Below the pieces are notes generated by a model, which was not told the origin of the DNA, did not search any database, and was given only the letters and a program-made list of their open reading frames with translations. Of a DNA stretch of 63,442 nt, positions 4,899 to 53,712 are shown piece after piece. The DNA is taken from IMG/VR virus record IMGVR_UViG_3300032241_001905, positions 1-63,442 of that record. One strand, written 5' to 3'. Each line of letters starts with the position of its first letter. Positions within the stretch are counted from its first letter, which is position 1. The stretch is from a virus. The position numbers and the translations under genes were made by a program.

Positions 4899-4899
4899 T

Positions 4900-26028: not shown

Positions 26029-28875
26029 ATGTCAATATTCAAAGATACATTTAAACAAGGCGTTCAAGACCAAATAACAGCACGTCAAAATGCTATAGTA
26101 GGTAGGAGTGTAGATTCCATGCAATATTTTAATTCACGCAATGCTTGGATTAAAATGACTTCTGCTGTAAATGTAGGAGGATCTGCTGACTTAGCAGCTA
26201 AATATATTTTACAAGGTGGTATTTTAAATTCAAAATCCAAATTAAGATCAGGACTAGGACAAGATGGTGCTTACAGCAATGTTTCACCTACAGGAAAACC
26301 TTATAGATTAGGTATTAGACCAATGCCTGGTATTAACCATATAGAAGTTAAATCAAAATCAGCATATGGTTCTTTAAGAGAAATTACAGTACATTTTCAG
26401 GCTTGGGATATTAGACAATTAGAAGATTTAGAATTATTATATATGAGACCTGGTTATTCTGTATTAGTAGAATGGGGTTGGTCTCCTTATTTAGATAATA
26501 AAGGTGCTTTACAAACAACTGTAAATTATAATGAAGTTAATATATTAGGTAATAGTGCTCCTAAAACTTCAAAAGAAGATATTTGGAAAGCTATATATAC
26601 TAAAGCCGCTAGAGACGGAAATTATGATGCTGTATATGGCTTTATTAAAAATTATAGCTGGTCAGCTCGCACAGATGGAGGATATGATTGTACTACAACC
26701 ATAATAACAATGGGTGAAATATTAGAATCATTAAAAATAAACTATGGCTCATTTGATACAAATGTAGGACAAATAGGAGCATTTAAAGTATTACCTGTTT
26801 CTTCATTTCAAACTAGTCCAAATAACGCACTTTTACTTAGTGCAGGAGTAGCAGGAGCTGGTTTAAATGGAAGTACAGGTGCTGCCTCTGCTATAGTTAG
26901 TGTTATTAATGAATCTAATTTATCCAAATCATACGCTCAAAACTTATTAGCAGGTATACTTAATGAATTATATTTAATAATGAAAGATAGTAGTCTTTCC
27001 AAGTATGCTATTGCAAATAACTTTAATGAAGGTACATTTACTGATACTACTTCGGGATATAGTTATACTTTCTTTAGATATGATTTAGATATATCTGGAA
27101 ATAATAAATTAGATAAAACTGACTTTCACAATAACACTCAAATTTTTATTAAATTAAAAGATTTTATTAATTTATTAAATACAAAAATATTACTACACGA
27201 CTCAGATCATACAAACCCTAAAGCATTAGTAGAAGTTTCAGTTACAGAAGGAACTATACACCAAACAGGAGCAGATTTATTATGTTTAAGTCACCCATTC
27301 CAATTATCAACTGACCCTTCAGTATGTTTAATAAAAAATAATAAATGGATAGATCCACAAAATAATTTCAACATAACAGTAGATAATGTTAACTTATCTC
27401 AAGTGATGAATGGATTAAAAAGTGATTTTTATAAAGATACAGCTAACGGTAGTGCACAATTAGGTGTTATAGGAAATATTTACGTTAATTTAGGTTATTT
27501 ATATTCTTTAGTTACAAATGAAGATTTAGCATCTAGAGATAAAAAGGAAAAAAATGATATTTCGGTATTTGATTTTCTAAAAAATATGCTAAACGGTATT
27601 AATACCGCTATTGGTAATGTAGCTAACCTTGATATATTTGTAGATCCTGTAGATTCTGTAGCTAGAATAATAGATGTAAACTATGTTGATTCTGCTAAAA
27701 GACAGAAAGCATATGATGATGCCTTTATTATTCAAATGCAAAATATCAAATCAGTAGTAAGATCTTATAAATTAGAATCACAAATATTTCCTGAGCAATC
27801 AACTATAGTTGCTATTGGAGCTCAAGTAAAAGGAGGAGCATTAGGTACTGATGTAAACACATTAATTGATTTTAATCAAAATTTAGAAGACAGAATCATA
27901 CCTAAAAGAGATGCTCCGCTTACTACTATTAAATCTAATCCTTTAGAAGAAGCAGAAACTAAAGTTAAAAATTTAAAAACTAATTTAAATTCTATAACAA
28001 AGTATATAAGCAAACTAGAACCAGGATTTTGGAGTAATACAGGTGACTTTAGTGTTTTAGAAGCATCTAAATATGCTAACTCTTTAAAGGACATTATTTC
28101 ATTCTATAAAGATTTAACACCAGACGACAATAAAAATAGAGCAATTATTCCTACAAAATTATCTATTGATATGGATGGTGTAGGAGGAATTATTATAGGA
28201 AATTTATTTAGAATACCAGATGATATATTACCAAGAGGATATAAAGGTGATGGTGCTGGTCCTAAAAAAATATCTTATGTTGTTACTGGTATAGGTCATT
28301 CAATTCAAAATAATGATTGGACAACTCATTTAGATGCTCAATTTATCATATTAGATGAACCTACAGGAAGCATATCAATAGCAGATGCTAATAAATTAGC
28401 AGCCTCAATAATTGGTTCTGTTAGTAATGGTAATACAATTCAAGCAGCAGCTACGTTAGCTGGTTTAACTTCTACTCCTAATGGATTAGTATATCCTGTT
28501 AAAGGTTTATTTACTATATCTTCTAAATTTGGAACTGTTAGAGCAGATGAAATACATCCTGGAACTGATATATCTGTTGGTTTAGGTACACCTGTAATAG
28601 CAGTTGAAGATGGAACAGTAATAGCATCTACTTTTAATACCCTTAATGGAAACTATATTAGAATTCAACATACAGGACAATTAGCAGGATATGATACTAT
28701 TTATCTTCACATGTCTCAACTTAATGTAAATAAAGGGGATAAAATAACTAAAGGCCAAATAATTGGACTTTCAGGAAATACTGGTAAATTAAGAGGTCCT
28801 CACTTACATTTCCAAATAGACCAAACAGGAGGAACAACAGGAATAAATCCATCTCAATTTTTCCCTGGATTTTAA
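26029..28875 (+). CDS. Baseplate hub protein with C-terminal M23 peptidase
   Basis: A 948-residue protein. The N-terminal region (GINHIEVKSKSAYGSLREIT, DIRQLEDLELLYMRPGYSV, LVEWGWSPYLDN) resembles the gp27-type hub that forms the trimeric ring at the tail tip. From about residue 819 the C-terminus is a LytM/M23 metallopeptidase: EIHPGTDIS has the HxxxD zinc ligands (His843, Asp847) and GPHLHFQI the HxH (His925, His927). This cuts peptide cross-links of peptidoglycan during injection. T4 uses a separate gp5 lysozyme; here hub and lysin are one chain. A short spacing and no SD precede ATG 26029. Confidence 0.85.
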   Translation: MSIFKDTFKQGVQDQITARQNAIVGRSVDSMQYFNSRNAWIKMTSAVNVGGSADLAAKYILQGGILNSKSKLRSGLGQDGAYSNVSPTGKPYRLGIRPMPGINHIEVKSKSAYGSLREITVHFQAWDIRQLEDLELLYMRPGYSVLVEWGWSPYLDNKGALQTTVNYNEVNILGNSAPKTSKEDIWKAIYTKAARDGNYDAVYGFIKNYSWSARTDGGYDCTTTIITMGEILESLKINYGSFDTNVGQIGAFKVLPVSSFQTSPNNALLLSAGVAGAGLNGSTGAASAIVSVINESNLSKSYAQNLLAGILNELYLIMKDSSLSKYAIANNFNEGTFTDTTSGYSYTFFRYDLDISGNNKLDKTDFHNNTQIFIKLKDFINLLNTKILLHDSDHTNPKALVEVSVTEGTIHQTGADLLCLSHPFQLSTDPSVCLIKNNKWIDPQNNFNITVDNVNLSQVMNGLKSDFYKDTANGSAQLGVIGNIYVNLGYLYSLVTNEDLASRDKKEKNDISVFDFLKNMLNGINTAIGNVANLDIFVDPVDSVARIIDVNYVDSAKRQKAYDDAFIIQMQNIKSVVRSYKLESQIFPEQSTIVAIGAQVKGGALGTDVNTLIDFNQNLEDRIIPKRDAPLTTIKSNPLEEAETKVKNLKTNLNSITKYISKLEPGFWSNTGDFSVLEASKYANSLKDIISFYKDLTPDDNKNRAIIPTKLSIDMDGVGGIIIGNLFRIPDDILPRGYKGDGAGPKKISYVVTGIGHSIQNNDWTTHLDAQFIILDEPTGSISIADANKLAASIIGSVSNGNTIQAAATLAGLTSTPNGLVYPVKGLFTISSKFGTVRADEIHPGTDISVGLGTPVIAVEDGTVIASTFNTLNGNYIRIQHTGQLAGYDTIYLHMSQLNVNKGDKITKGQIIGLSGNTGKLRGPHLHFQIDQTGGTTGINPSQFFPGF

Positions 28876-29432: not shown

Positions 29433-30728
29433 ATGTTTTACATAATAGAGAAAAAAGAACAACTAGATCAATTAAGTGACTTTGGAGATTGTTTTATTGA
29501 ATTTATTCAATATAATGATAATTTTCACCCTACGTTAAACCCAACTAGTTTAATTTACATTCGACAACTTACTGATAAAAAAGGATATATATTGTGTATT
29601 GAACACAATGAATCATTTTCATTAAATAGAAAAGACGTTGCTCAGTGGTTATTAAATAATACAAAAAACTTATTTGTACTTAATAAAAAAACATCGCTAT
29701 ATCACTTCCCACATGAACAGAAGTTATTTGATATAAATTTTATTGAACAACCAGATTTAAGTGAAGCCACGAATATCCCCGCTATAACATATTTCTATAA
29801 AAGATTTGTTGATAATCCGGTTACTAATCAAATGATTCCTATTAGTAAACATTACGAAAAAATGGAGCGAATATTTGATGTCATACTGCCAATAATTCGC
29901 AAATACCGAGCAGATAACGCTGTTTATGCGTTTAATAATGGGCCTTTAACGCGTGTATTTCATAAAATAGAATCACAAGGTATTACGGTGGACAAGCAAT
30001 GTTTCATAGATTGCTATGGTGATGATTTACAATACCCTAAATTTAATTTATTTCAAGGTAAAATATACAGCCAATATAATTTGTATACTGTTACTGGAAG
30101 ACCGTCAAACACATACAATAGTATTAATTTTGCTGCATTAAATAAAACAAACGGCGAAAGAACATGTTATAGACCTGAAAATACTAAATTTATTGAATTT
30201 GATATACAGGGTTATCACCCACGTTTAATTGGTGAAATGATTAAATTTGATTTTGGTAATGAAAACACGTATGAATTATTAGGTAAATTATTAAATGTTA
30301 CTACTCAAGAAGCTAAAGAATTAACATTCAAACAATTGTATGGAGGTGTATGGGCTGAATATAGAAACAAACCATTTTTTAAAGATATAGTATCCTTAAC
30401 AGATAATATATGGGATACTTACCAATATGGCAAGTCATATTCAACAGAAAATAAAATATTTAGAACCGATGAAGAAATAACTCAATCTAAATTATTAAAC
30501 TATATTACTCAGAGTAAAGAAACATCAACTAATGTTAAAATATTAGAAAAAATATTAGATTATCTTAAAGATAAAAAAACAAAATTAGTATTGTATACCT
30601 ACGATGCGTTTTTATTTGATTACGCTGAGGAAGACGGTAAAGAAGTATTAGTGAAAATTAAAGAATTAATTGTATACCCGGTTAATATCAAACAAGGTAA
30701 TACATATCATGGTTTGGAGAAAATATAA
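29433..30728 (+). CDS. Compact family A DNA polymerase-like protein
   Basis: A 431-residue protein with the palm/finger motifs of PolA in order. YTVTGRPSNTYNSINF matches the TGRLSS region. EFDIQGYHPRLIGEM is motif A, with catalytic Asp257. EAKELTFKQLYGG is motif B, with Lys295 and Phe299 spaced as Lys758 and Phe762 of E. coli Pol I. YTYDAFLFDY is motif C, with Asp391; the usual HDE is YDA. The N-terminal 110 residues look like a decayed 3'-5' exonuclease without acidic residues. Total length is about half of Pol I. The window also encodes a full family B polymerase, so this may be a repair, bypass or accessory enzyme. Confidence 0.75.
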   Translation: MFYIIEKKEQLDQLSDFGDCFIEFIQYNDNFHPTLNPTSLIYIRQLTDKKGYILCIEHNESFSLNRKDVAQWLLNNTKNLFVLNKKTSLYHFPHEQKLFDINFIEQPDLSEATNIPAITYFYKRFVDNPVTNQMIPISKHYEKMERIFDVILPIIRKYRADNAVYAFNNGPLTRVFHKIESQGITVDKQCFIDCYGDDLQYPKFNLFQGKIYSQYNLYTVTGRPSNTYNSINFAALNKTNGERTCYRPENTKFIEFDIQGYHPRLIGEMIKFDFGNENTYELLGKLLNVTTQEAKELTFKQLYGGVWAEYRNKPFFKDIVSLTDNIWDTYQYGKSYSTENKIFRTDEEITQSKLLNYITQSKETSTNVKILEKILDYLKDKKTKLVLYTYDAFLFDYAEEDGKEVLVKIKELIVYPVNIKQGNTYHGLEKI

Positions 30729-30734: not shown

Positions 30735-31157
30735 ATGATGGAACAATTAAATGAATTTTTCGACTTGAACAAGCTTTTCTGTACGTTTACCACTCCCGAT
30801 AAAATAGAAGAAACGGTAACAACAATTAATCGTAAATATTCAATATTATTTAACAAAATTTTCATATTAGAGTCGCCTCAAAGTGACGAATTAATATGCA
30901 CTTATAATATTGATACAGGTAACATGGGTATATCACCTATGGCTAATACCATCTTGCTTCATCGTAAAAAGGAATCCAATACATTATATACTATTAACGC
31001 TTTAAATACATTAATCAAATCATTGAATGGTGGATTTTTAGATAAAAATTATATGGTAAATTGGCAAGAATATAAAAACAGCATACTATTAACTGATGGA
31101 CCTAATCTACGTAAATTAGATACAGCAATCTATAAAATAATAGACTTTAATAAGTAA
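30735..31157 (+). CDS. Unknown protein next to replication genes, 140 aa
   Basis: A second ATG (30738) follows the first, so the start is uncertain by one codon. The sequence has FFDLNKLFCTFTTPDKIEET, an alpha/beta pattern (IFILESPQSDELICTYNID) and LLHRKKESNTLYTINALNTL. No known motif. The gene begins within an ATATTTATG string six bases after the polymerase-like gene, and is followed by the ssDNA-binding protein promoter. It is possibly a small replication or regulatory factor; function unknown. Confidence 0.6.
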   Translation: MMEQLNEFFDLNKLFCTFTTPDKIEETVTTINRKYSILFNKIFILESPQSDELICTYNIDTGNMGISPMANTILLHRKKESNTLYTINALNTLIKSLNGGFLDKNYMVNWQEYKNSILLTDGPNLRKLDTAIYKIIDFNK

Positions 31158-31238: not shown

Positions 31239-32078
31239 ATGGACTTAAGTCTAATCAAACAGAAGTTGGCCGCTTCTCAAAACAAAGGTCAAAAGAAAAC
31301 TTACGAAAAGATTGATTACTCAACAATCTTCTGGAAACCAAAACCAGGTAAGCATCAAGTTAGAATTTTACCTTCAAAATTCGACAAATCAAATCCGTTC
31401 CGTGAAGTTTATTTCCACTACGGTTTCTCTAAAGGACCTATCTTAGCATTAAACAACTGGCAAGAAAAAGATCCAATTGTAGAATTTGCAAAAAGCCTTC
31501 GTAAATCATCTGACAAAGAAGATTGGCAATTAGCTAAAAAAATCGAACCGAAATTACGCTACTTCGTTCCTGTACTTGTACGTGGTGAAGAAGAAAAAGG
31601 CGCTCGTTTATGGGAATTTGGTAAGTTAATTTATGATCAACTTTTAGGTATTGCTACTGACGAAGATTACGGTGACTACACAGACATTACTGATGGACGT
31701 GACTTTACTATTGAGGCTACAGAAGACATAGTAGCAAATAGAAAAGGTATTAAATGCGTTATTCGCGTTAAGCCAAAAACATCAGCTATCTCTGATAATG
31801 CTGATTTAGTAACTAAAGTTTTAAAAGACCAACCCGACATTTTTTCTATCAACAAGCATTTTACTTTTGATGAATTAAAGGATCTTTTAGACAAATGGTT
31901 GAATCCAACAACAGAAGAAGATACTGAAACTCCAATTGCATCTAAAACAGAAGATGAAGAGGAAGAAGATGATTTCTTAACTGAAATTAACAAACCAGTT
32001 GAACAACACTACCAAGTAGATGTTAAGGCAGCTAAAACGTCTAACACAGACAAATTCAACGATTTATTTAACGATTAA
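31239..32078 (+). CDS. ssDNA-binding protein (gp32-like)
   Basis: A 279-residue protein. It starts with MDLSLIKQKLAASQNKGQKK, a basic N-terminal arm like that used for cooperative binding. The core has YSTIFWKPKPGKHQVRILP and FVPVLVRGEEEKGARLWEFG, the OB-fold pattern of T4-type gp32. The acidic C-terminal stretch (EDEEEEDDFLTEINK) is the partner-binding tail. The T4 zinc-binding His/Cys set is absent, since only one Cys is seen. Length is close to T4 gp32 (301). The gene has its own host-type promoter and is followed after nine bases by uvsX. Confidence 0.88.
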   Translation: MDLSLIKQKLAASQNKGQKKTYEKIDYSTIFWKPKPGKHQVRILPSKFDKSNPFREVYFHYGFSKGPILALNNWQEKDPIVEFAKSLRKSSDKEDWQLAKKIEPKLRYFVPVLVRGEEEKGARLWEFGKLIYDQLLGIATDEDYGDYTDITDGRDFTIEATEDIVANRKGIKCVIRVKPKTSAISDNADLVTKVLKDQPDIFSINKHFTFDELKDLLDKWLNPTTEEDTETPIASKTEDEEEEDDFLTEINKPVEQHYQVDVKAAKTSNTDKFNDLFND

Positions 32079-32087: not shown

Positions 32088-33197
32088 ATGTCCAAAGCAA
32101 AAATAGATAAGACATTAACGTCTGTGGTGTCTGCATCTTTGAAACAAGGATTTGATTTAGATAACTTTAAAAAAAGTAAATTTTTAGATCAAGCCTCTAA
32201 GTTCAAAACACAGAGATGGATTCCATTTTCAAATGCTGTTTTAGATGCATTATCTATCCCTGGGGTACCTATGGGACACGTTACTATTGCTAGAGGTGGT
32301 TCTGATACTGGTAAAACTACTCTTATGATTGAAGCAGCAGTTGCTGCTCAAAAGATGGGAGTAATGCCTGTATTTATCATTACGGAAATGAAATGGGATT
32401 TCGCTCATGCTCAAAAAATGGGTTTAGAAATTACTGCTATTCCTGATGAAGAAACAGGTGAAGTAATGGACTATAAAGGATTCTTCCTATATGTAGATAG
32501 ATCATCTTTAAACTCAATTGAGGATGTATCGGGATTCATAGCAGATCTTTTAAATGATCAAGCCAAAGGTAAATTACCATTTGACTTATTATTCCTTTGG
32601 GACTCAGTAGGTTCAATACCATGTCAAATGAGTATTGATCAAGGAAAAAATAACCCAATGTGGAATGCAGGAGCAATGGCTACTCAGTTTGGTAATTTTA
32701 TTAACCAACAGTTTCCATTATCTCGTAAAGAGAAATACCCGTACACAAATACTCTATTTGTAATTAACAAAACAGGAGTACAACCCGCTTTAACACCAAT
32801 GTCTCAACCTAAAATGACAAATAAAGGTGGTAATGCAATGTATTGGGATGCTTCAATTGTAATTACATTTGGTAATGTTACTAACAGTGGTACATCTAAA
32901 ATCAAAGCAGTTAAAAACGGTAGAAACGTTGAGTTTGCTAAACGTACTAAAGTAGCGATAGATAAAATTCACGCTGACTGTGGTATTGCAACTTCATCTA
33001 CTGTAATTGTAACTCCTCATGGATTCATCCCTGATGATGATAAAGCAATCAAAGAGTATAAAAAACAATATGCTAAAGATTGGTTTGAGGGTGTAACTAA
33101 TGCTGATGATCTACAAATTATTGAAGATAATAGCGAATGGGAAGAAAGTAGTAAAATATCTCCAATGATAGAAATAGATAATGATAATGCAGAATAA
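32088..33197 (+). CDS. uvsX: RecA-like recombinase (UvsX)
   Basis: A 369-residue protein. The Walker A motif GGSDTGKTTL has Lys76, and Walker B lies in FDLLFLWDSVGSI. The L2-type region GNAMYWDASIVITFG follows. The C-terminus is acidic. This is the strand-exchange protein for recombination-dependent replication of T4-like phages, acting with gp32 and gp41 encoded next door. Length is near T4 UvsX (391). Its end overlaps the start of the RNase H gene by 17 bases. Confidence 0.93.
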   Translation: MSKAKIDKTLTSVVSASLKQGFDLDNFKKSKFLDQASKFKTQRWIPFSNAVLDALSIPGVPMGHVTIARGGSDTGKTTLMIEAAVAAQKMGVMPVFIITEMKWDFAHAQKMGLEITAIPDEETGEVMDYKGFFLYVDRSSLNSIEDVSGFIADLLNDQAKGKLPFDLLFLWDSVGSIPCQMSIDQGKNNPMWNAGAMATQFGNFINQQFPLSRKEKYPYTNTLFVINKTGVQPALTPMSQPKMTNKGGNAMYWDASIVITFGNVTNSGTSKIKAVKNGRNVEFAKRTKVAIDKIHADCGIATSSTVIVTPHGFIPDDDKAIKEYKKQYAKDWFEGVTNADDLQIIEDNSEWEESSKISPMIEIDNDNAE

Positions 33198-34212
33198 GTA
33201 TGCTGATATTCTCTCTAACATAAACAATGATCAACGTGGAGTCCAAGACTCCATTTTGATTGTTGATGGATTAAATACATTTTTGAGAGCATTTACCATG
33301 ATCAATTATTTAAACTCGGAAGGCCACCACATTGGTGGTCTAACGGGTTTTCTTAAATCATTAGGTTATGCTATTAAATTAATAGACCCAACTAAGGTAA
33401 TCGTTGTATTTGATGGTGTTGGCGGATCAAATAACAAACGTAATTTGTATCCTGAATATAAGGCAAATAGAAATACTAGCCGTATGACTAATTATGCTAT
33501 ATTCACATCTAAAGAAGATGAAAGAGAATCTATTAACAATCAAATGGCAAGATTAATACATTATCTTCAATGCCTTCCCATATCAATGGTTTGTATTGAC
33601 GGGATTGAAGCCGATGATGCAATTGGCTATTTAGCAGGAAAATTAGATAAATTTGAGGCTACTAGAGAAATAACTATAATGTCTGCTGACCAGGATTTCC
33701 TTCAGTTAGTAACAGATAAAACGCAAGTATATTCTCCTACTAAAAAGAAAATATACAAACCGGATAATGTACTAGAAGAATATAAAGTTACTGCTAGTAA
33801 TTTTGTTAATTACAAAATATTAATGGGCGATTCTTCAGATAATTTACCAGGTGTATTAGGGCTAGGACCTAAAAAACTACTAAAATTATTTCCAGATTTA
33901 GCTACAAGTAAACAAGTAACACTAGAGGATATACTGTTAGAATCAGCAGCTAAAGTTAATGAGCATATTTTGTATGCTCGTATAATTGAGCGAACAAATC
34001 AATTAGATATTAATAGACAGTTGATAGATTTAAGAACAATACCTCTATCAACAGAAAATATAGAACAAATACAAGCAGGATTTAAAATGCCGTATGAATT
34101 AAATTCACACGCTTTTATGCAAATGTATATTTCAGATAAATTAGGTGAATCCATACCTAATACACCAAGTTGGATAAATCAAGTATTTGGTCCTCTAAGT
34201 GCTTTTAAGTAA
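33181..34212 (+). CDS. rnh: RNase H/5'-3' exonuclease (FEN-like)
   Basis: A 343-residue protein. SILIVDGLNTFLRAF and VIVVFDGVGGSNNKRNLYP (followed by an EYKANR segment) are the N-terminal acidic motifs of the FEN/PIN superfamily, and GIEADDAIGYLAG and MSADQDFLQLVT carry the metal-binding Asp residues. MGDSSDNLPGVLGLGPKKLL is the helix-hairpin-helix region. It matches T4 RNase H (305), which removes RNA primers from lagging-strand fragments. The start is ATG 33181 (MIMQNKYAD) inside the uvsX end; ATG 33187 is possible. An imperfect 7-bp hairpin sits at 33322-33340 in the coding region. Confidence 0.9.
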   Translation: MIMQNKYADILSNINNDQRGVQDSILIVDGLNTFLRAFTMINYLNSEGHHIGGLTGFLKSLGYAIKLIDPTKVIVVFDGVGGSNNKRNLYPEYKANRNTSRMTNYAIFTSKEDERESINNQMARLIHYLQCLPISMVCIDGIEADDAIGYLAGKLDKFEATREITIMSADQDFLQLVTDKTQVYSPTKKKIYKPDNVLEEYKVTASNFVNYKILMGDSSDNLPGVLGLGPKKLLKLFPDLATSKQVTLEDILLESAAKVNEHILYARIIERTNQLDINRQLIDLRTIPLSTENIEQIQAGFKMPYELNSHAFMQMYISDKLGESIPNTPSWINQVFGPLSAFK

Positions 34213-34231
34213 ATTTAAAAAAATAGGTTAT

Positions 34232-35614
34232 ATGACAACATTAAGTAAGCTTAATCAGTACGGAAATGCATTTCAGACAAAGGTATTAGGCGCTTTATTA
34301 ACACAACGTGACTTTTTATTAAATATTTCAGATTCACTTGACAGTGAATATTTTGAATCACAATCTCATAAATGGATTATTGATTATATTATTAAATATT
34401 TTACTCAATACCATACATTTCCAACAATAGAAACATTAGCAATTGAAATTAAAAAGATTGATAATGAGGTATTACGAATTTCGCTAACAGATTCTATAAG
34501 AGAAGCCTATAAAATGTCAGATATATCTGATTTAGAATGGGTTGAAAAAGAATTTAGTGATTTCTGTAAGAATCAACAGATGAAAAAAGCAATTATGACA
34601 TCTGTTGATTTGTTAAATATGGGTGATTATGATGGTATTAGATCTTTAATCAATACGGCTATGAAAGCAGGTGAAGATAGAAATATCGGTCACGTTTATG
34701 GTTTAGATATTGAAGCAAGATATCGAGATGATAATAGAAATGTTATTCCATTCCCTTGGCCTGTATTTAATGATTTAACTCAAGGTGGATATGGTAAAGG
34801 AGATTTAGTATTAATATTTGGTAATCCTGGTGGTGGTAAATCTTGGGCTGTAATGGCTATGGGTGCTTATGCTGCTACATTAGGTTTTAATGTAGTCCAC
34901 TATACACTAGAATTATCTGAAGGTTATGTAGGTAAACGTTATGATTCTATATTTACTGGAATTGAAGTTGACAAATTACATTTACATAGAGACCAAGTAA
35001 ATGAAACTGTAGCTAAAGTAAAAGGTAAAGTTATTATTAAGGAATATGCTCCTAAAAGAGCATCTTTAGATACAATTGAAGCTCATTTACAACAACTAGA
35101 ACATCAGGAAGAATTTAAACCAGATTTAGTTATTATTGACTACCTAGATCTATTAAAAACAAAAGGTAGATCAGAACGTAAAGATGAAATTGATGATGTT
35201 TATACTGATGCTAAAGGATTAGCTAAAGAACGTAGTATTCCTATTATATCACCATCTCAAGCTAATAGAACAGGAGCTGATGAAGGTATTTTACAAGGTA
35301 AGAATGCAGCTGGTTCTTATGATAAAATTATGATTGGAGATATAATTATATCCTTGGCTAGAGGTCGTTTAGCCAAAGTAAACGGAACAGGTAACTGGCA
35401 TTGGATTAAAAATAGATATGGACCTGATGGATTAACATTTGGTTCACAAATTAATACAGCAAATGGGTATATAAACATATACAATCAACCACTAGATGAT
35501 GAGGAATTTGAAACAAATAAAACAAATAAGCCAACAAATAACTTTTCAGAAGTGGGAATAGAAGATCGTCAGGTTCTTAAAAGTAAGTTTATGAAACTTG
35601 AAGGGGCTCAATAG
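34232..35614 (+). CDS. Replicative DNA helicase (DnaB/gp41-like)
   Basis: I choose ATG 34232 (MTTLSKLNQYGNAFQ), giving 460 residues, rather than GTG 34199, which lies inside the RNase H gene. The Walker A motif FGNPGGGKSWAVM has Lys203, VIIDYLDLL is Walker B, and SQANRTGAD the DnaB H3-type region. The ring helicase unwinds the fork with primase, which is not in this window. Length equals T4 gp41 (475) closely. A 35-nt gap with a promoter-like element separates it from thioredoxin. Confidence 0.93.
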   Translation: MTTLSKLNQYGNAFQTKVLGALLTQRDFLLNISDSLDSEYFESQSHKWIIDYIIKYFTQYHTFPTIETLAIEIKKIDNEVLRISLTDSIREAYKMSDISDLEWVEKEFSDFCKNQQMKKAIMTSVDLLNMGDYDGIRSLINTAMKAGEDRNIGHVYGLDIEARYRDDNRNVIPFPWPVFNDLTQGGYGKGDLVLIFGNPGGGKSWAVMAMGAYAATLGFNVVHYTLELSEGYVGKRYDSIFTGIEVDKLHLHRDQVNETVAKVKGKVIIKEYAPKRASLDTIEAHLQQLEHQEEFKPDLVIIDYLDLLKTKGRSERKDEIDDVYTDAKGLAKERSIPIISPSQANRTGADEGILQGKNAAGSYDKIMIGDIIISLARGRLAKVNGTGNWHWIKNRYGPDGLTFGSQINTANGYINIYNQPLDDEEFETNKTNKPTNNFSEVGIEDRQVLKSKFMKLEGAQ

Positions 35615-37822: not shown

Positions 37823-38410
37823 ATGGCAGGAGTTATTTATAAAATTACCAATCCTAAAGATAAAATCTATATAGGATGTACTATTGATTTCAAACGAAGA
37901 CTATCAGAATATAGACGATTAAGTATGGCTGGACAGGTTAAATTGTATAACAGCTTAATTAAATATGGGTATGATAATCATAAGTTTGAAATTATAGAGG
38001 AATGTAGTGATGAAATATTACATGAACGTGAAATATACTTTATAAAACACTACAACTGTATAGAAGAAGGATTAAATATTAGATTAGGGAACAGAACAGG
38101 AGCATTAACTGAAGATACAAAACAAAAAATATCTGCAGCTTTAACAGGAAGAAAAGTAACATGGCATTCTAAAGGACCTAAAGGTTATAAGTATACTGAG
38201 GAACAAAAACAAAAATTGAGTAATGGTTTAAAAGAATATTATCAACATAATTCTGCTAAACCAAAACCTAAATTAGTACCACCACACATAGTAGAAGAAA
38301 TTAGATTAAAGTATAAAAATGGACATAAACGTTCATCTTTAAGTAGAGAATATAATGTAAGTTGGGGTACTATCAAAAATATAACAGACCATATAAATTC
38401 ATATGAGTAA
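37823..38410 (+). CDS. GIY-YIG homing endonuclease
   Basis: A 195-residue protein. The N-terminal catalytic domain begins AGVIYKITNPKDKIYIGCT (the GIY...YIG motif), with the conserved Arg in DFKRRLSEYRR and Glu in the ILHEREIYFI segment. Residues 100-145 hold NUMOD3-like DNA-binding repeats (TEDTKQKISAALTGRK, TEEQKQKLSNGLKEYY). The C-terminus (KYKNGHKRSSLSREYNVSWG) is a helix-turn-helix. It is free-standing, inserted between the reductase gene and the deazaguanine block, with its own leader. It overlaps the DUF5522 start by eight bases. Confidence 0.92.
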   Translation: MAGVIYKITNPKDKIYIGCTIDFKRRLSEYRRLSMAGQVKLYNSLIKYGYDNHKFEIIEECSDEILHEREIYFIKHYNCIEEGLNIRLGNRTGALTEDTKQKISAALTGRKVTWHSKGPKGYKYTEEQKQKLSNGLKEYYQHNSAKPKPKLVPPHIVEEIRLKYKNGHKRSSLSREYNVSWGTIKNITDHINSYE

Positions 38411-38621: not shown

Positions 38622-38748
38622 TCTACAACAACTAAACATTGCTAGTTTAACTCCAGAACAACTAGAACAATTATTAACTAAAATAAGTTCTATTATTGAG
38701 ACAGGCGAAAAACAATTATCAGAAATAAAAATAGAGACAAATGAGTAA
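38587..38748 (+). CDS. Small acidic helical protein, 53 aa
   Basis: I use ATG 38587 (MNLEQLVEETNNLQQLNIAS), since a longer in-frame extension to 38497 lies wholly in the DUF5522 gene. The peptide is helical and acidic, ending EIKIETNE, with the last bases overlapping the QueD-like start. No family is recognised. It could be a small binding partner. Confidence 0.5.
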   Translation: MNLEQLVEETNNLQQLNIASLTPEQLEQLLTKISSIIETGEKQLSEIKIETNE

Positions 38749-39205
38749 GTTTCAATCAACTAAACTATTTGACGGTTATAGCTGTGTGTTCCGTCAATGG
38801 AAAGCAGAAGGCACACACTGCAGATTTCTTCATGGATATGGAATATCATTTAGAGTATGGTTTGAAGGCGAATTAGACGAACGCAATTGGGTTTGGGATT
38901 TTGGAGGTATGAAGCGTGCTAAAGGCAATATTGATGGTATGAATCCTAAAGAATGGATGGATTATATGTTTGATCATACATTATTAGTAGCAGAGGATGA
39001 TCCATATCTAACTGGTTTTAAAGCAATGGGGGATCATGGGTTATGTCAAACTAGAGTATTACCTGCTGTAGGTGCTGAACAATTTGCTAAGTATGTTTTT
39101 GAAAAAATAAATACATTTGTTCAAGAAGAAACTAATGGTAGAGTTAATGTTGTAAGAGTAGAATTTATGGAAAATAGTAAAAATACAGCTATATATGAAG
39201 GTTAG
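38741..39205 (+). CDS. queD: 6-carboxytetrahydropterin synthase-like protein (QueD family)
   Basis: A 154-residue protein. TKLFDGYSCVFRQWKAEGTH and the following CRFLHGYGISF align with the QueD start, where Cys lies four residues before HGH. VWDFGGMKRA, FDHTLLVAEDDP and VRVEFMENSKNTAIY match the DF, DH and Glu positions. Family role: 7,8-dihydroneopterin triphosphate to 6-carboxytetrahydropterin, step 2 toward preQ0. The usual zinc ligand HGH reads HGY and the first His is missing, so the metal site differs. I recall a bacterial subfamily with a similar GYSCxFRQW start. It sits in a block with FolE, QueE and QueC. Confidence 0.8.
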   Translation: MSKFQSTKLFDGYSCVFRQWKAEGTHCRFLHGYGISFRVWFEGELDERNWVWDFGGMKRAKGNIDGMNPKEWMDYMFDHTLLVAEDDPYLTGFKAMGDHGLCQTRVLPAVGAEQFAKYVFEKINTFVQEETNGRVNVVRVEFMENSKNTAIYEG

Positions 39206-40662: not shown

Positions 40663-41493
40663 ATGTCAAAGAAAGCAGTTTTAAGTTTATCTGGTGGAAT
40701 GGACTCAAGTACATTATTACTCCACTTATTAGCAAATGGTTACGAAGTTACAGCTCTAGGCTTCGATTATGGTCAAAAACACAAAGTAGAATTAGAAAGA
40801 GCTAAATCGTTAGTTGAATACATCAACAGTCAGTTTGATAAAACAGACGGAACAGCCCCTTTAACTTACTCTAAAGTAAAGCATCAAATTATTAAATTAG
40901 ATGGTTTATCTCAGCTATTAAACTCAGCATTAGTAGAGGGTGGTAATGAACTTCCAGAGGGTCACTATGAACAATCTAATATGTCTTTATCGGTTGTTCA
41001 AAATCGTAACAAAATATTTAGTTCTATTATTCAAGCAGTAGCATTGTCTGTTGCTGAAAAAGAAAATACTGAAACTATTATTGCTATGGGGATTCATGCT
41101 GGCGATCACTTAATTTACAAAGATTGTAGACAAGAATTTCGTGATGCTGATTATCAAGCTTTTTTAGAAGGTAATGAGAATGGGTATTTAGTTACTTATT
41201 ATACACCCTATCTTAAAGTTAATAAGTTTGAAATTTTAGAAGATGGATTGAAATCATGTGAGAAACTGAGTTTAGATTTTGACGAAGTATATAAACGCAC
41301 AAGCACTTCCTACAAACCTTACCCATCAGGAAACAGTGATTACAAATCAGCTTCATCGGTTGAACGTGTAGAAGCATTCATAAAATTAGGTCGCCCAGAC
41401 CCAGTAATTTATGAAGATGAAAATGGTATAGCTTCTTGGGATACTGTAGTAACTCATGTTAAGCAAGTATTAGAAGATTTTCAATCATCTTAA
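40663..41493 (+). CDS. queC: 7-cyano-7-deazaguanine synthase-like protein (QueC)
   Basis: A 276-residue protein. AVLSLSGGMDSSTLLLHLL is the PP-loop ATP-binding motif, and ALGFDYGQKHKVELERA and VVQNRNKIFSSIIQAVAL are highly typical of QueC. Known reaction: CDG to preQ0 through ADG, using ATP and ammonia. The four C-terminal Cys that bind zinc in cellular QueC are absent: the aligned stretch (residues 213-235) has Ser at these places (TSTSY, SGNSDYKSASSVER). It is about 45 residues longer than E. coli QueC. A homing endonuclease gene follows. Confidence 0.9.
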   Translation: MSKKAVLSLSGGMDSSTLLLHLLANGYEVTALGFDYGQKHKVELERAKSLVEYINSQFDKTDGTAPLTYSKVKHQIIKLDGLSQLLNSALVEGGNELPEGHYEQSNMSLSVVQNRNKIFSSIIQAVALSVAEKENTETIIAMGIHAGDHLIYKDCRQEFRDADYQAFLEGNENGYLVTYYTPYLKVNKFEILEDGLKSCEKLSLDFDEVYKRTSTSYKPYPSGNSDYKSASSVERVEAFIKLGRPDPVIYEDENGIASWDTVVTHVKQVLEDFQSS

Positions 41494-43069: not shown

Positions 43070-43924
43070 ATGAGTAAAATAGATCCAAATAAATTACTTA
43101 TCTCATCTGACTTTTATACAGTACAGGGAGAAGGTATAAGTAGCGGTATTCCCGCTTACTTCGTTCGTTTAGGTATTTGTAACCTAACCTGCGGAATGTC
43201 TCGTGCATTTACTAACCAATTAGCTAAAGAGCAAAAATTAGAAGACGGAGAAATTTTCGTTGGTGATTTACATGCTGAAGGTAAGGCTACTTGGACTTGT
43301 GATTCTACAAGTCAATGGTTATGGAGAGGCGAAGATAAAGAATTTCAATATTTAATCAATCGTTGGAAAGAAGAAGGTGTATATGAAGATATCAAGAGTG
43401 GTTTAGTTCATATTATTTGGACTGGTGGTGAACCAACAATTAAAGGTCATCAAGAAGCAATTGTTAATTTCTGGAAATATTTTGAAAATAAAGTTAGTTG
43501 GTTAGACCATTATGATGATGAGTTTCTGGAGGCATTCAATGAAATAGAAACTAACGGTACTAACTATATTGAAGATGATTTATTTCATATGTTAGATCAA
43601 ATCAACTGCTCACCTAAATTAACTAATTCAGGTATGACAGAAAAACAACGTATTGTTCCTAAAGCAATTGAGCGTATTATGGAACATTCAAACTATCAAT
43701 TTAAGTTCGTTATCAGCACAGAAGATGATGTTAAGGAAATATTCCGCGACTTTGTTGAACCATTTAATATACCGCTTAAAAACGTTGTTTGTATGCCTGG
43801 TTTAGATGATGCTGCTAATTTTGAAGAACGTACTCGATTTGTAATGGAGATGGCTAAAAAATATAGATTTAGAGGATTAACGCGTTTGCACATTGCAGCG
43901 TGGAATAAAACATTAAACGTATAA
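43070..43924 (+). CDS. queE: 7-carboxy-7-deazaguanine synthase-like protein (QueE)
   Basis: A 284-residue protein. FYTVQGEGISSGIPAYFVRL is the classic QueE start, and HIIWTGGEPTIKG is the radical SAM GGEP motif. The cluster Cys are GICNLTCG (Cys37, Cys41) and WTCDST (Cys77). Normally the third Cys is three residues after the second; here 35 residues intervene, an insertion between Cys 2 and 3. Known reaction: CPH4 to CDG. ETNGTNYIEDD and CSPKLTNSG are the usual substrate and Mg regions. It stands between small unknown genes and two tiny membrane peptides. Confidence 0.88.
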   Translation: MSKIDPNKLLISSDFYTVQGEGISSGIPAYFVRLGICNLTCGMSRAFTNQLAKEQKLEDGEIFVGDLHAEGKATWTCDSTSQWLWRGEDKEFQYLINRWKEEGVYEDIKSGLVHIIWTGGEPTIKGHQEAIVNFWKYFENKVSWLDHYDDEFLEAFNEIETNGTNYIEDDLFHMLDQINCSPKLTNSGMTEKQRIVPKAIERIMEHSNYQFKFVISTEDDVKEIFRDFVEPFNIPLKNVVCMPGLDDAANFEERTRFVMEMAKKYRFRGLTRLHIAAWNKTLNV

Positions 43925-44172: not shown

Positions 44173-44901
44173 ATGGAAAACAAACGCAGACAAACAACAA
44201 ATCTTGAGACACTAGAATTAGCAAAAGCAGGTTTTGCAAATGGTATATCCCAACAACTAAAATCACTAATTGAAGATGGTTATCATCGTTCATTAACTGA
44301 TGATGAAAAATGGGGTATAGTAAAAAATGCAGAAGAAGCATATGGTAAATTTCTAGATGCTTTAGGTGTAGATTGGAGAAATGACCCAAACAGTATGGAA
44401 ACACCTCGTCGTGTAGCTAAAAAACTAGTATTCGATATGTGGGCTGGTAGATATAATTTACCTACTGATATTACTTCATTCCCTAGTGATGGATATAATG
44501 GTATAATTTTAGAAAAAGATATACCTGTGGTGAGTATGTGCTCACATCATCATGAAACTATACTAGGTAAAGTACATATTGCATACGTGCCTAGCAAAGA
44601 TGGAAAAGTTATTGGCTTGAGTAAACTAAATAGAATAGTTGAACACTTTGCTAGACGAGGAGCAATCCAAGAACAGCTTACGATGGCCATTCATAATGCT
44701 TTGGATAAAATAATAGAAGGCAACGAAGGTATCATGGTAATGATGCAAGCTACTCATAACTGTGTATCATGCAGAGGTATTAAACACATGGGAGCCAGTA
44801 TGATTACTAGTGAAGTATCTGGTGTATTTGCTGATCATACCAAAACTGCTAAACAAGAGGTAATGAGCATGATAGGGTATAAAATGGATGCTTATAGATA
44901 A
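44173..44901 (+). CDS. folE: GTP cyclohydrolase I (FolE)
   Basis: A 242-residue protein. VVSMCSHHHETILGKVHIAY holds zinc ligands Cys123 and His126, and MQATHNCVSCRGIKHMG the third ligand Cys197. VIGLSKLNRIVEHFARR and QEQLTMAIHNAL are standard. Known reaction: GTP to 7,8-dihydroneopterin triphosphate, the first step of both folate and 7-deazaguanine routes. With QueD, QueE, QueC and the DpdA-like gene, the deazaguanine route is the likely use. Length is near the family norm (about 222). Confidence 0.95.
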   Translation: MENKRRQTTNLETLELAKAGFANGISQQLKSLIEDGYHRSLTDDEKWGIVKNAEEAYGKFLDALGVDWRNDPNSMETPRRVAKKLVFDMWAGRYNLPTDITSFPSDGYNGIILEKDIPVVSMCSHHHETILGKVHIAYVPSKDGKVIGLSKLNRIVEHFARRGAIQEQLTMAIHNALDKIIEGNEGIMVMMQATHNCVSCRGIKHMGASMITSEVSGVFADHTKTAKQEVMSMIGYKMDAYR

Positions 44902-45576: not shown

Positions 45577-48156
45577 ATGTATCAATCAATTTATTACGAT
45601 CGACCTACTTACACTTATTACTTACGTGATGATGAAAAAGGATGGTTAGATTTCAAATATACTCCTGAGTTATATAAAATAACACCTGATGGACCTTTAG
45701 AAACATTAGATGGTAAACGTGCTGCTCCTACAAGTAAGTACGAATGGAGAGATATTTCATTATATGAACAAGATGTTGATAAATGTACTCGTGTATTAAT
45801 TGATTTATTTAAGGATAGTGATGATGCTCCTATATACCACAATGTAGTTTATTTTGACATTGAGTGTGAAATTGGAGGAACATTAACATCTGAATATATT
45901 AAAACAGCACCTATGAAGATTACTTCAATTGCTGTTTATGATCAAACACTACAACAACACTATTGTTTAATTTTGGATGAAAAACAAGAATTAAAAAACA
46001 TAAGTGAAAATAATAGAAAGATTGTCCCATTTACTAATGAACGAAGTTTATTAGAAGGATTTTTAATATTATGGGAACGTATTGACCCAACTATTATTAC
46101 AGGATGGAATAGTGGATTCTTCGATGTACCTTACTTATATTATAGATTATGTAATGTATTAGGTAAAGAGGAAGCATCTAGATTATCTCCAATACGTAAA
46201 TTGAATTTTACTGAATGGGATACTTCTCAACCAATTGAGTTGGGAGGTATTAACCATTTGGATTATATGTTGTTATTTAAGAAGTTTATTGTAAAACAAG
46301 AACCATCTTATAAATTAAACGATATAGGAGAGAAATACGTTAAATTAGGTAAAGTAGAATATGAAGGATCATTAGATAAATTATTTAAGGAAGATGTAAA
46401 TAAGTTTATTGATTATAATATTCGTGACGTTGAAATTATTATTGCACTAGAAAAGAAACTTAAATTTATAGAATTAACAGTTGCAATTTGTCATTTATGT
46501 CATGTGCCTTATGAACAAATTTATTTATCAACTGTATTAAATGATGGAGCTATATTAACATACCTAAAACGTCAAGGTATAGTTTCACCAAACAAACCAA
46601 CTACAATTAACCCTTCACTTAAAGAAAGTAATAATGATGAATACGCAGGTGGGTATTTAAAAGATCCAACACCTGGTCTTTATGAATGGGTTATTGACTT
46701 GGACTTTACATCGCTTTATCCGTCCATTATTCGTTCTTTAAATATTGGAATTGAAACGCTTATAGGTAGAATAGTTAATAGTGGTAAGTACGATAACCAA
46801 TGGACTTATGCTGAGTTAAAAGAAATGAATCCTGATGATTTAGTAGTAATTGAGCGTTTAAAACCTGATTTTACAACAGTTAGAACACAAGTTGCTGTAA
46901 GCAAAATAATTCAAATGATTGAATCAAATCAATGGATTACTGCTGCTTCTGGAGCTATATTTCAAACAGATAGATCATCAGTAGTTTGTGATGTATTAAC
47001 TGACTGGTTTAATAAACGTGTTGAATATAAAAATTTAATGAAAACAGCTAAAAAAGCTGGTGATCATGTTAAAACTGAATTTTACGATAGACGACAACAC
47101 GCTTATAAAATTAAATTGAATGATGTTTATGGCTGTTATGCAATTAATGGATGGCGCTATACTGATGGACATAAAATTATTTCATCTGCTATTACATTAA
47201 CAGGTCAACGTGTAACACAAGAATCAATTAAGTTTGTAAATAAATGGATGAATAAAAAGTTAAATACAATAGATAAAGACTATGTTGTAACTTCAGATAC
47301 TGACTCATTATTTATTCAAGTTAAAGATTTATTATTAGCTAAAGGCGTTGATATTAATAATAAGGAAGAATGCGTTAAAGCTATATTAGAAACTGCTACT
47401 GAGGTACAAAAAGCAGCGAATGAAAATATATCTCAATTTGCTAAAACTGCTTTTAATTTAAATGATAGACAACATTATTTTGAATTAAAGCAAGAGGTAG
47501 TTATTGAGAGAGGATATTTTGCTGGTAAGAGACGTTATGCAATGTTAATTGTAAATAAGGAAGGTGTACCTGTAGAAGAAATGATAATGATGGGACTTGA
47601 TTTGATGAAATCAAATATGCCTCCATTGTATAAGAAATTTGGACAAGGTTTATTAACAGAAATTATGTCTGGTAAACCTAAACCAGAAATAGACAAACGC
47701 ATAGTAGATTTTAAGAAATCATTAGATCAATTACCTTGGATAGATTTAGCCAAACCAACAGGAGTAAAACAAATTAACTCATATATTGCTAAACGTCCAT
47801 CGCCTGGTGAAATATTTAGTGAATTTAAATTAAAAGCACCTATTAATACTAAAGCCGCTGTTTACTATAATGACTTACTTAAGTTTAAAAGAGCAGGTAA
47901 ACAGTATTCTCAATTTACAGAAGGTGATAAAATAAAGTACGTATCTTTAAAACCAAATCCATTTAATATTGATGTAATAGGTTTCAATGGTTTTAACGAT
48001 CCTGATTTTATTATTGAATTTATAGATAAATACGTTGATAGAGAAGATGCATTTAACTCTGTATTACTAAATAAATTAACAGGTGTATATGAAGATTTAG
48101 GCTGGGACTTTCCAGTATTAAATGAAAAAATAAATAGATTCTTTAAGTTTGGGTAA
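45577..48156 (+). CDS. Family B DNA polymerase (gp43-like)
   Basis: An 859-residue protein, close to T4 gp43 (898). The exonuclease motifs are VVYFDIECEIGG (Asp94, Glu96), ITGWNSGFFDVPYL and YNIRDVEIIIAL. The polymerase motifs are VIDLDFTSLYPSIIRSL (motif A, Asp376), KIKLNDVYGCYAING (motif B) and VTSDTDSLFIQ (motif C, Asp574 and Asp576). It is the replicative polymerase with proofreading. The C-terminus ends KINRFFKFG, resembling a clamp-binding tail. The clamp gene follows. Confidence 0.97.
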   Translation: MYQSIYYDRPTYTYYLRDDEKGWLDFKYTPELYKITPDGPLETLDGKRAAPTSKYEWRDISLYEQDVDKCTRVLIDLFKDSDDAPIYHNVVYFDIECEIGGTLTSEYIKTAPMKITSIAVYDQTLQQHYCLILDEKQELKNISENNRKIVPFTNERSLLEGFLILWERIDPTIITGWNSGFFDVPYLYYRLCNVLGKEEASRLSPIRKLNFTEWDTSQPIELGGINHLDYMLLFKKFIVKQEPSYKLNDIGEKYVKLGKVEYEGSLDKLFKEDVNKFIDYNIRDVEIIIALEKKLKFIELTVAICHLCHVPYEQIYLSTVLNDGAILTYLKRQGIVSPNKPTTINPSLKESNNDEYAGGYLKDPTPGLYEWVIDLDFTSLYPSIIRSLNIGIETLIGRIVNSGKYDNQWTYAELKEMNPDDLVVIERLKPDFTTVRTQVAVSKIIQMIESNQWITAASGAIFQTDRSSVVCDVLTDWFNKRVEYKNLMKTAKKAGDHVKTEFYDRRQHAYKIKLNDVYGCYAINGWRYTDGHKIISSAITLTGQRVTQESIKFVNKWMNKKLNTIDKDYVVTSDTDSLFIQVKDLLLAKGVDINNKEECVKAILETATEVQKAANENISQFAKTAFNLNDRQHYFELKQEVVIERGYFAGKRRYAMLIVNKEGVPVEEMIMMGLDLMKSNMPPLYKKFGQGLLTEIMSGKPKPEIDKRIVDFKKSLDQLPWIDLAKPTGVKQINSYIAKRPSPGEIFSEFKLKAPINTKAAVYYNDLLKFKRAGKQYSQFTEGDKIKYVSLKPNPFNIDVIGFNGFNDPDFIIEFIDKYVDREDAFNSVLLNKLTGVYEDLGWDFPVLNEKINRFFKFG

Positions 48157-48183: not shown

Positions 48184-48909
48184 ATGAAAAAGTTATACGT
48201 AGAAGACGTCATTGAAAAATATCACTTAGGTGGTTTAGTTGAACGTGTTAAAATAACAGTTAGTGATAAAGTATTAACTACTAAGTTCTTAGCTAATAAG
48301 AAAAATCTAGTAGGTACTATTACTGCTCCTAACATAGAATTAGAAGATTGCGAATTTGGTGTATATGACACTACTCAACTACTTAAATTAATTGGTATTA
48401 CAGATCACTTTATTATATTAGGAGTTGACAAGAGAGGTAAAGTAGCCAACAAGTTACTAATTTCAGATAACGAATTTAATTTAGAATATATTTTAGCAGA
48501 TGTAATGTTAACACCATCAGTACCTAGTATTGATGAACCAGAATATGACATGGTAGCTGATGTAGATGATGATTTTGTATCACGTTTTCTAAAAGCATCA
48601 AAAGCATTAAGCACAGACGTGTTTATTGTTGAACAATCAAAAGATGTTGAAGATGAACAAGCAATTAAATTTACATTAGGTGGTACCGAAAATTACACTA
48701 ATAAAATTAACTTCACATTAAAAACACTAATACACGGCAAACCAGGTAAAATTACTAAGTTCCCATTAGAAGAATTTAACGAAATATTAGCAGCAAATAA
48801 AGAATTCAAAGCAGGTAAATTAAGCATTAGTGTAGATGGATTATTAAAGATTGAATTTGCTAATGAAGAAGGCGTTATAGTTAGCTATATATTAGTTGGA
48901 AAAGAATAA
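48184..48909 (+). CDS. Sliding clamp (gp45-like)
   Basis: A 241-residue protein (T4 gp45 is 228). EFGVYDTTQLLKLIGI and DDDFVSRFLKASKALSTDVF match the two structural repeats of the phage clamp, and LLKIEFANEEGVIVSYIL is the last beta-sheet. It forms a trimeric ring that tethers the polymerase. It sits directly behind the polymerase gene, with its clamp loader genes 4-6 kb further on. A small hairpin follows the stop. Confidence 0.85.
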   Translation: MKKLYVEDVIEKYHLGGLVERVKITVSDKVLTTKFLANKKNLVGTITAPNIELEDCEFGVYDTTQLLKLIGITDHFIILGVDKRGKVANKLLISDNEFNLEYILADVMLTPSVPSIDEPEYDMVADVDDDFVSRFLKASKALSTDVFIVEQSKDVEDEQAIKFTLGGTENYTNKINFTLKTLIHGKPGKITKFPLEEFNEILAANKEFKAGKLSISVDGLLKIEFANEEGVIVSYILVGKE

Positions 48910-49045: not shown

Positions 49046-49648
49046 ATGAACAACAGCAACAGCGTGTTCGTAGTTACCGAAGGCTTATCGCTTACAAGTG
49101 GTACTACAGGAACAGCAACATTCACAACAGGTATTTCAACACCCACTATATACAATGGTGGATTTGTAGCAAGTAATATAGGCACAACAACCCTAGCTAC
49201 ATTAGAGTACAGACAACCAACTTACAACGACTTTTGGAAATTTGATGAAGAATTTGATCTTCTTTGGAAATCATTCTTCGATCCAAATGCACTTTACAGA
49301 CCAATCAAAGAAAAAGCAGTATCTCACCCTTGCGATATCCAAGAAACGGATAACGGCCTACGCATTGAAATTGCAGCAGTAGGATTAGATAAGGAAGATC
49401 TTGACATTATTACCGATTCAGAAACACTTCGTGTTGCATATCGCAAACCAACGAGTGAAGAGGAAGAGGAAAAAAATGAATACAGATATTTCCAACGCTC
49501 AATTAAGAAAGCAAGTTTTGATATCGCTTGGAAAATTTCAAGCAAATTCGATTTAGCTAAATTAGAGGCTAAATTAGATAAAGGATTATTAACTTTAGAC
49601 GTACCATTTGCTAAAGAAAATAAACCTAAGAAAGTTACAATTAAATAG
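49046..49648 (+). CDS. Small heat shock protein (Hsp20)
   Basis: A 200-residue protein. Residues about 92-195 form the alpha-crystallin domain: CDIQETDNGLRIEIAAVGLD (strands 2-4), DSETLRVAYRKP, FQRSIKKASFDIAWKIS and AKLEAKLDKGLLTLDVPFAK, ending KKVTIK as the C-terminal I-x-I-like anchor. The first 60 residues are Thr/Ser/Gly-rich (TSGTTGTATFTTGISTPTIY), unlike usual Hsp20 N-termini. It holds unfolding proteins for refolding. It is followed by groES and groEL in the order expected of one chaperone module. Confidence 0.92.
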   Translation: MNNSNSVFVVTEGLSLTSGTTGTATFTTGISTPTIYNGGFVASNIGTTTLATLEYRQPTYNDFWKFDEEFDLLWKSFFDPNALYRPIKEKAVSHPCDIQETDNGLRIEIAAVGLDKEDLDIITDSETLRVAYRKPTSEEEEEKNEYRYFQRSIKKASFDIAWKISSKFDLAKLEAKLDKGLLTLDVPFAKENKPKKVTIK

Positions 49649-52788: not shown

Positions 52789-53712
52789 ATGAAAAGAGAA
52801 CATACATTATGGATTGAAAAGTTTCGTAGCCAAACATTAGATCAATATATAGGCAACGATGCGGTTAAAGACCGCATCGCTGACTGTATAGTTAAAAACG
52901 ATATACCGCATTTTATCTTTAGCGGTACAGCTGGTACAGGTAAGACTACACTAGCTAAATTAATTGTAAATAATATCAAATGCGATTACTTGTATTTAAA
53001 TGCAAGTGACGAGAATGGTATTGATATGATTAGAGAAAAAGTAAAGGGTTTTGCATCATCTGCATCTTTTAATCCTATTAAAATAGTAATATTAGATGAG
53101 GCTGATTTCTTAACTCAACCTGCTCAAGCTGCACTTCGTAATATTATTGAAGAATACTCAATGAATACACGTTTTATTTTAACTTGTAATTATATTGAGC
53201 GTTTAATTGAACCTTTACAATCACGTTGTGAGGTTAATATTTTAAAACCACCTACTAAAGGTTCCGTTGCAAAACACATCTGTACTAATATTTTAGATGT
53301 TGAAGAGATTGAATATGATATTAAGGATGTAGCTAAAATTATTAATGAATATTACCCTGATATTCGTTCTGTTATTAAAGTGTTACAACAAAATGTTAAA
53401 GATAACAAATTAACAGTTATTGTTATAAATGATAGTTGGTGCAAACAATTAGTTCAAATACTAAATAAACGCGAAAAAAACGCGTGGTACCAAATACGCC
53501 AATTAGTAGCCGACTCGCAAGTAGACGATTTCCAAATCGCTTATCGCTATATGTTTGATAACTTGACCGAATTTAGTTATGGACATGACGCAGAAATATC
53601 AGTTGTATTAGATGATTTTATTTGGAGAGCAGGGGTTGTGCCTGACAAGGAAATAAATGCAATGGCTTGTATTGCTAAGATACTTGAGACTACTAAGAAA
53701 CAAGTATTATAG
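52789..53712 (+). CDS. Clamp loader ATPase subunit (gp44/RFC-like)
   Basis: A 307-residue protein (T4 gp44 is 319). LWIEKFRSQTLDQYIGNDAV is the RFC box start. Walker A GTAGTGKT is at 46-53, Walker B ILDEAD around 101-106, and IEPLQSRCE the arginine-finger SRC motif. It opens the sliding clamp with the gp62-like partner encoded at 54514. A perfect 9-bp hairpin (52857-52879, arms CGATGCGGT and ACCGCATCG) sits at codons 23-31. A small hairpin follows the stop. Confidence 0.95.
   Translation: MKREHTLWIEKFRSQTLDQYIGNDAVKDRIADCIVKNDIPHFIFSGTAGTGKTTLAKLIVNNIKCDYLYLNASDENGIDMIREKVKGFASSASFNPIKIVILDEADFLTQPAQAALRNIIEEYSMNTRFILTCNYIERLIEPLQSRCEVNILKPPTKGSVAKHICTNILDVEEIEYDIKDVAKIINEYYPDIRSVIKVLQQNVKDNKLTVIVINDSWCKQLVQILNKREKNAWYQIRQLVADSQVDDFQIAYRYMFDNLTEFSYGHDAEISVVLDDFIWRAGVVPDKEINAMACIAKILETTKKQVL

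Follow-up and report, generated by a model that had tools for sequence, protein, structure and literature searches.

Gene content and conservation of the locus

The DNA analysed here, referred to as the window, is a viral record of 63,442 bases. It is probably a fragment, and the primase and other genes that lie outside of it were judged from relatives. An uninterrupted reading frame with an ATG start, at 29433..30728 on the plus strand, encodes a 431-residue homologue of family A DNA polymerases of the compact divPolA1 type. The assignment of the protein to divPolA1 is close to certain.

The polymerase gene is part of a conserved gene order that consists of an M23-peptidase tail gene, a 164-aa ORF, divPolA1, orf140, gp32, a recombinase, a flap nuclease, and a DnaB helicase. 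In the window, the tail-region protein (26029-28875) is 948 aa long and carries a C-terminal Peptidase_M23 domain (residues 842-934, E 1.3e-26). Downstream of divPolA1, all on the plus strand, follow orf140 (30735..31157), a conserved partner-candidate ORF that starts after 6 bp; a gp32-like single-strand binding protein (31239..32078; PF08804, 3.8e-15); a UvsX/RecA-family recombinase (32088..33197; PF00154, 1.7e-8); a 5'-3' exonuclease or flap nuclease of the family that includes T4 RNase H and the Pol I N-domain (33181..34212; PF02739, 4.9e-33); and a DnaB-family replicative helicase (34199..35614; phrog_19, 7e-73). Among loci with enough flank, the same-strand order was kept downstream in 110-111 of 111 and upstream in 179 of 179. 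When loci with enough upstream flank were anchored on the flap nuclease, divPolA1 was present in all 44; it showed at once in 43 and lay farther upstream in the contig in one. An apparent loss in contig L377 was due to the limited stretch viewed, as the gene lies at 4870-6219 there, and contig L375 may end before it. Promoter and terminator consensus scans gave matches at chance level.

The recombinase is the least constant of these neighbours. In Microcystis phage Mel-JY01 its relationship to the window UvsX is no more than remote (L003 15660-16805), and in the 484-kb record LR756508 the window recombinase was not found by tblastn (L002 11773-12948). In both phages, orthology is still recognisable for the flap nuclease, gp32, helicase, and orf140, and the recombinase may have been swapped. 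The orf140 protein is 57% identical to its immuto counterpart, against 33% for the polymerase, and contains the motif HRKKxxNTLYTINALNxLI. Its AlphaFold2 model (pLDDT 87) gave no significant fold match in a structure search against the PDB. In the phage collection, orf140 occurs in exactly the six records that carry divPolA1, a co-occurrence that may reflect shared ancestry.

Fold of the polymerase

As a single sequence, the protein has no meaningful match in Pfam, PHROG, or PDB, and none to DNA_pol_A. Its Pol I homology emerged only with a family profile. The Klenow part was reached at E=4e-4 by a 24-member profile and at E=5e-4 by a diverse profile of 79 members, and 21 of the 79 relatives matched the Pfam DNA_pol_A family (PF00476; best 7e-13). 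A profile comparison of divPolA1 with the full PolA of immuto was weak (E 0.011, probability 4%, 4 template sequences) and aligned motifs A, B, and C. An AlphaFold2 model built on the 79-sequence alignment (pLDDT 95.3, pTM 0.92) matched Pol I structures along its entire length in Foldseek, with a best E of 1e-15. The TM score was ~0.6-0.7 by query length and the rmsd ~7-11 Å, as expected for a model with missing or shifted domains. Profiles and model together show a family A polymerase homologue with a predicted Pol I fold that comprises an exonuclease-like domain, a palm, and fingers. Thus, the reading frame, the profiles, and the structure comparison that a preliminary description of this DNA had named as a check all agree with its claim of a 431-residue family A-like polymerase.

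What is missing from this fold is mainly the thumb. Its remnant spans residues 180-223 (29970..30101, plus strand) and ends in motif 1, TGR. The distance from G183 to R223 is 40 residues, compared to ~124 in E. coli Pol I, and the model has one 11-residue helix in this region. Alignment and model thus show a thumb that is mostly deleted and nearly gone. The fingers are also shortened relative to E. coli Pol I.

The N-terminal exonuclease-like domain covers approximately residues 1-156 (29433..29900, plus strand) and has apparently lost its DEDD acids. No recognisable set of these acids was found with a profile alignment that places the domain weakly. On this same weak alignment, the strand that should carry a DxE pair has none, and nearly all members are hydrophobic at position 25. 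Residues H32, H58, K86, and D100 of the domain are near-invariant. It appears from the sequences that the proofreading site of divPolA1 is lost, which agrees with a structure-based statement in the published account of divPolA1 (PMC11348598). The suggestion of an exonuclease-like N-terminus without its acidic residues therefore stands insofar as no conserved DEDD set could be placed, but the mapping of the domain itself by profile is weak.

Active-site residues

Residues were mapped by alignment with E. coli Pol I, T7 gp5, and the Muddy, Twort, and full immuto PolA enzymes. Equivalent positions in the window polymerase and E. coli Pol I are R223 and R668, D257 and D705, H262 and E710, R264 and R712, K295 and K758, F299 and F762, Y303 and Y766, N356 and N845, Q360 and Q849, Y390 and H881, D391 and D882, and A392 and E883. 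On the plus strand, motif A (residues 257-264, DIQGYHPR; 30201..30224) contains the catalytic D257 and, at the steric-gate site, H262. Motif B, or the O-helix (residues 295-304, KELTFKQLYG; 30315..30344), lacks an equivalent of R754, where T291 is found. Motif C (residues 390-392, YDA; 30600..30608) contains the catalytic D391.

Conservation was assessed in 216 distinct divPolA1 homologues, down to ~24% identity. D257, H262, K295, F299, Y303, G304, and Q360 are invariant in all of them, and D391 is present in 215, the remaining sequence being gapped there. The three motifs with D257, D391, K295, and F299 are thus in register with E. coli Pol I, as the preliminary description had proposed, and are unvarying apart from that gap. 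The canonical O-helix pattern R-x3-K-x3-F/Y-x3-YG keeps its K, F, and YG in divPolA1 and is missing its Arg. The R754 site is mostly Tyr across the 216 homologues, with Arg absent from the common residues. Motif A departs from the canonical D-x4-E, in which Glu is the steric gate, because every one of the 216 members has His in place of the Glu that gates ribose (E. coli E710). All five canonical Pol I enzymes in the residue map keep this Glu.

Motif C had been singled out for reading YDA instead of HDE. The YDA reading is confirmed, but the change of E883 to Ala is not unusual, as residues other than Glu are also found here in ordinary phage Pol I: Muddy has HDA, Twort HDS, and immuto HDQ. 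The odd residue of YDA is therefore the Tyr. Judged by alignment, the real departures from Pol I are the change of E710 to His262, the change of H881 to Tyr390, the loss of R754, and the cut of ~84 residues from the thumb; among these, the His in motif A is a larger departure than the motif C Tyr.

Relatives and selection

A tblastn search of 50,697 phage records gave six matches: four Flavobacterium phage immuto records, LR756508, and Mel-JY01. The immuto homologue is 32.7% identical over 98% coverage (E 1e-60) and is annotated in its record as 'DNA polymerase family A'. In IMG/VR, at least 576 relatives of the window polymerase were found in one scan, and 312 and 109 in two scans that used other divPolA1 members as query; a scan of this type with the LR756508 protein as query found no relatives. 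The search for relatives in other phages that the preliminary description recommended has thus yielded six phage records and hundreds of IMG/VR sequences. The largest records with divPolA1 relatives are mostly 150-190 kb, and one is 484 kb.

The median dN/dS over 67 independent divPolA1 pairs was 0.088, with a maximum of 0.2, a sequence-based measure that indicates strong purifying selection. Seven bacterial MAG contigs (L290-L296), assigned for example to Rickettsiaceae, Winogradskyella, and Flavobacteriales, also carry the gene and may be phage contigs binned with their hosts. In one locus (L036 4717-6071), the divPolA1 match is split in two and the open frame is shorter (322 aa), which may be due to a frameshift or sequencing error.

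Replicase, primase, and other phage genes

The regular replicase of the window phage is a family B enzyme encoded at 45577..48156 (PF00136; phrog_262, 1.5e-163), which bears out the earlier claim of a full family B replicase beside the compact polymerase. Also on the plus strand are genes for a sliding-clamp-like protein (48184..48909; phrog_223, 2.5e-5) and a clamp loader subunit (52789..53712; phrog_168, 1.4e-74). Each of the 15 divPolA1-bearing records that reach 150 kb or more has a single replicase type, which is family B in nine of them and a full family A enzyme in the other six. Ten records were searched for a family C replicase, and none was found. The family B polymerase is in short or separate frames of 596 and 301 aa in one record (L074, G005:C1:93355-95419), and its match lies in a 556-aa frame in another (L101, G007:C1:86123-86770); these are possibly split genes or contain an intron. 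All 15 large records also encode a DnaG primase, and for this reason a role of divPolA1 as the only primase of the phage was rejected as a first choice.

The window also carries genes of the deazaguanine pathway, namely QueD (38741-39205), QueC (40663-41493), QueE (43070-43924), and a FolE-like GTP cyclohydrolase (44173-44901). GroES (49697-49987) and GroEL (49992-51611) lie beside an Hsp20-like protein (49046-49648). A homing-endonuclease-like gene (37823-38410), whose PHROG matches include GIY-YIG, is found just downstream of a ribonucleotide reductase-like gene.

Proposed role in gap filling and alternatives

What might a second polymerase do in a phage that already has a replicase? The low dN/dS and the invariant active site argue for a working enzyme, and on sequence and model evidence polymerase activity is very likely. 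Without E710, R754, and H881, this activity could be reduced or redirected. The earlier proposal of a second, compact family A polymerase beside the replicase is supported, and the enzyme is probably active and apparently without proofreading. divPolA1 is kept with either a family A or a family B replicase, so it probably does something that the replicase cannot. Priming is already covered, because DnaG is present in each of the large records, and the surrounding genes speak for a part in replication and Okazaki processing.

The best explanation as a whole, to which we give a little less than an even chance, is that divPolA1 is an accessory family A polymerase that works beside the replicase on short patches and forms a split Pol I with the flap nuclease. 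A catalytically active divPolA1 that lacks a thumb and proofreading would make short patches. It would act at gp32-coated gaps after the flap nuclease encoded in its cluster has removed primers, so that nuclease and polymerase on separate proteins would constitute a 'split Pol I' for Okazaki-fragment maturation and related gap filling. The helicase would also be among the working partners, lagging-strand gaps would be the probable substrate, and bulk synthesis would be left to the replicase, which is of family B in this phage and of family A in some relatives. Gap filling as the specific role is a tentative proposal that we infer from these observations. Since all genes of the cluster are kept together, context does not point to the flap nuclease in particular as the partner. 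T4 relies on RNase H and its own replicase to mature Okazaki fragments and is not known to have a divPolA1-like enzyme, which also counts against a gap-filling role. Likewise counted against it is a family C replicase in some published divPolA1 phages (PMC11348598), a type not found in our sample.

Could the invariant His262 point to a different function? In PolA, E710 is a highly conserved residue that keeps ribonucleotides out (PMC9324360). With His at this site in the whole family and Glu kept by the canonical enzymes and a divPolA2 representative, sugar selection may be relaxed, permitting rNTP insertion or extension, for example in extension of DnaG primers, at RNA-DNA junctions, or in RNA synthesis. 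We consider this unlikely, as the bulk of His may also be enough to exclude the 2'-OH, the residues Y303 and F299 (Y766 and F762) are kept as in DNA polymerases, and with DnaG so regularly present no missing priming function calls for rNTP use. A broader version seems still less probable, in which the clade-wide loss of the Glu gate reflects natural use or extension of ribonucleotides, for example of hybrid RNA-DNA primers beside DnaG, with orf140 possibly supplying the thumb.

An equally unlikely role is that of a repair or lesion-bypass polymerase of low processivity that passes damage or modified bases in the manner of Pol nu or Pol theta. Such a role would suit the absence of a proofreading site, the reduced thumb and fingers, the neighbouring gp32 and recombinase, and the QueC/D/E and FolE-like genes of the phage. 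However, most repair genes are sporadic, whereas divPolA1 is universal and locked in the replication cluster. Furthermore, no relative of the immuto DNA-guanine transglycosylase (DpdA) was found in three large records (G012, LR756508, and Mel-JY01), and divPolA1 is equally conserved there. The option of a modified-base-tolerant polymerase, raised in the preliminary description, is weakened accordingly.

There is a rather slim chance that divPolA1 acts as a strand-exchange partner that extends D-loop intermediates made by UvsX in recombination-dependent replication. The gp32 and recombinase genes are near divPolA1 in all loci examined, but the polymerase is kept where the recombinase is remote (Mel-JY01) or undetected by tblastn (LR756508), which is mild evidence against such a partnership. 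Least probable, given a catalytic Asp pair and O-helix Lys, Phe, and Tyr that do not vary across diverse sequences and that a dead scaffold would not need, is a catalytically dead structural or regulatory protein, such as a helicase-loading or fork-protection factor that replaces T4 gp59; it is suggested by the position upstream of gp32 and by the absence of matches to the gp59 N-domain (PF08993) in the 15 records with T4 as a matching positive control, although a divergent gp59 was possibly missed.

Comparison with known systems

The window shares with the T4 gp32 region a T4-type gp32-like single-strand binding protein and a UvsX-like recombinase. T4 has gp59, encoded directly upstream of gp32, which is the protein whose N-domain was not found in the divPolA1 records. 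The expectation that T4-like phages have only a family B enzyme holds, to our knowledge, for T4 itself, which is without a PolA-like gene, but not for the clade described here, in which the extra gene is universal in the loci examined. This clade of T4-type phages is large and occurs in fresh water and the sea, and divPolA1 is universal in the part of it that was sampled. The window polymerase shares its fold, as well as motifs 1, A, B, and C, with the Klenow part of E. coli Pol I (PF00476). It differs from that enzyme in the ~84 missing thumb residues, the shortened fingers, the unrecognisable exonuclease acids, His for E710, Tyr for H881, and the lack of R754.

divPolA1 is already published, and the window gene adds another member. 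It was described in 14 phages including immuto, with genomes of 155-190 kb (Yutin et al. 2024, Virol J 21:200, PMC11348598; preprint PMC11188092). According to that paper, the palm catalytic residues are kept, the thumb is truncated, the exonuclease is inactivated, the phages also have a regular DNAP, which belongs to family A, B, or C, and conserved replication genes lie downstream. The window polymerase is homologous to immuto gp001 (named members MW353175-MW353177) over 98% of its length, and it shares the palm residues, the truncated thumb, the presence of a regular DNAP, and the downstream replication genes. The main text of PMC11348598 makes no mention of the terms steric, E710, histidine, or Okazaki, so that the invariant steric-gate His appears to be undiscussed in that text, and no discussion of the R754 loss or the H881 to Tyr change was found in its passages. 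A search for literature on the biology of immuto or Mel-JY01 found nothing on the divPolA1 gene. What is added to divPolA1 here is the hundreds of IMG/VR relatives, the purifying selection, the invariant His, the H881 to Tyr change, the R754 loss, and the co-occurrence with replicase and DnaG. As a minimal family A enzyme with little thumb and an unusual sugar-selecting residue, divPolA1 should be simple to express and assay, and it could reveal what a phage gains from two DNA polymerases.

A second family, divPolA2 (Vibrio phage 1.063.O AUR84708; barbaviruses), is likewise an extra PolA-like protein of ~430 aa with no normal thumb, in phages where another DNAP is present. AUR84708 has no homology detectable by the divPolA1 profile (-1.7 bits) and keeps Glu at the steric gate. 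Unlike divPolA1, divPolA2 has a variable gene context (PMC11348598).
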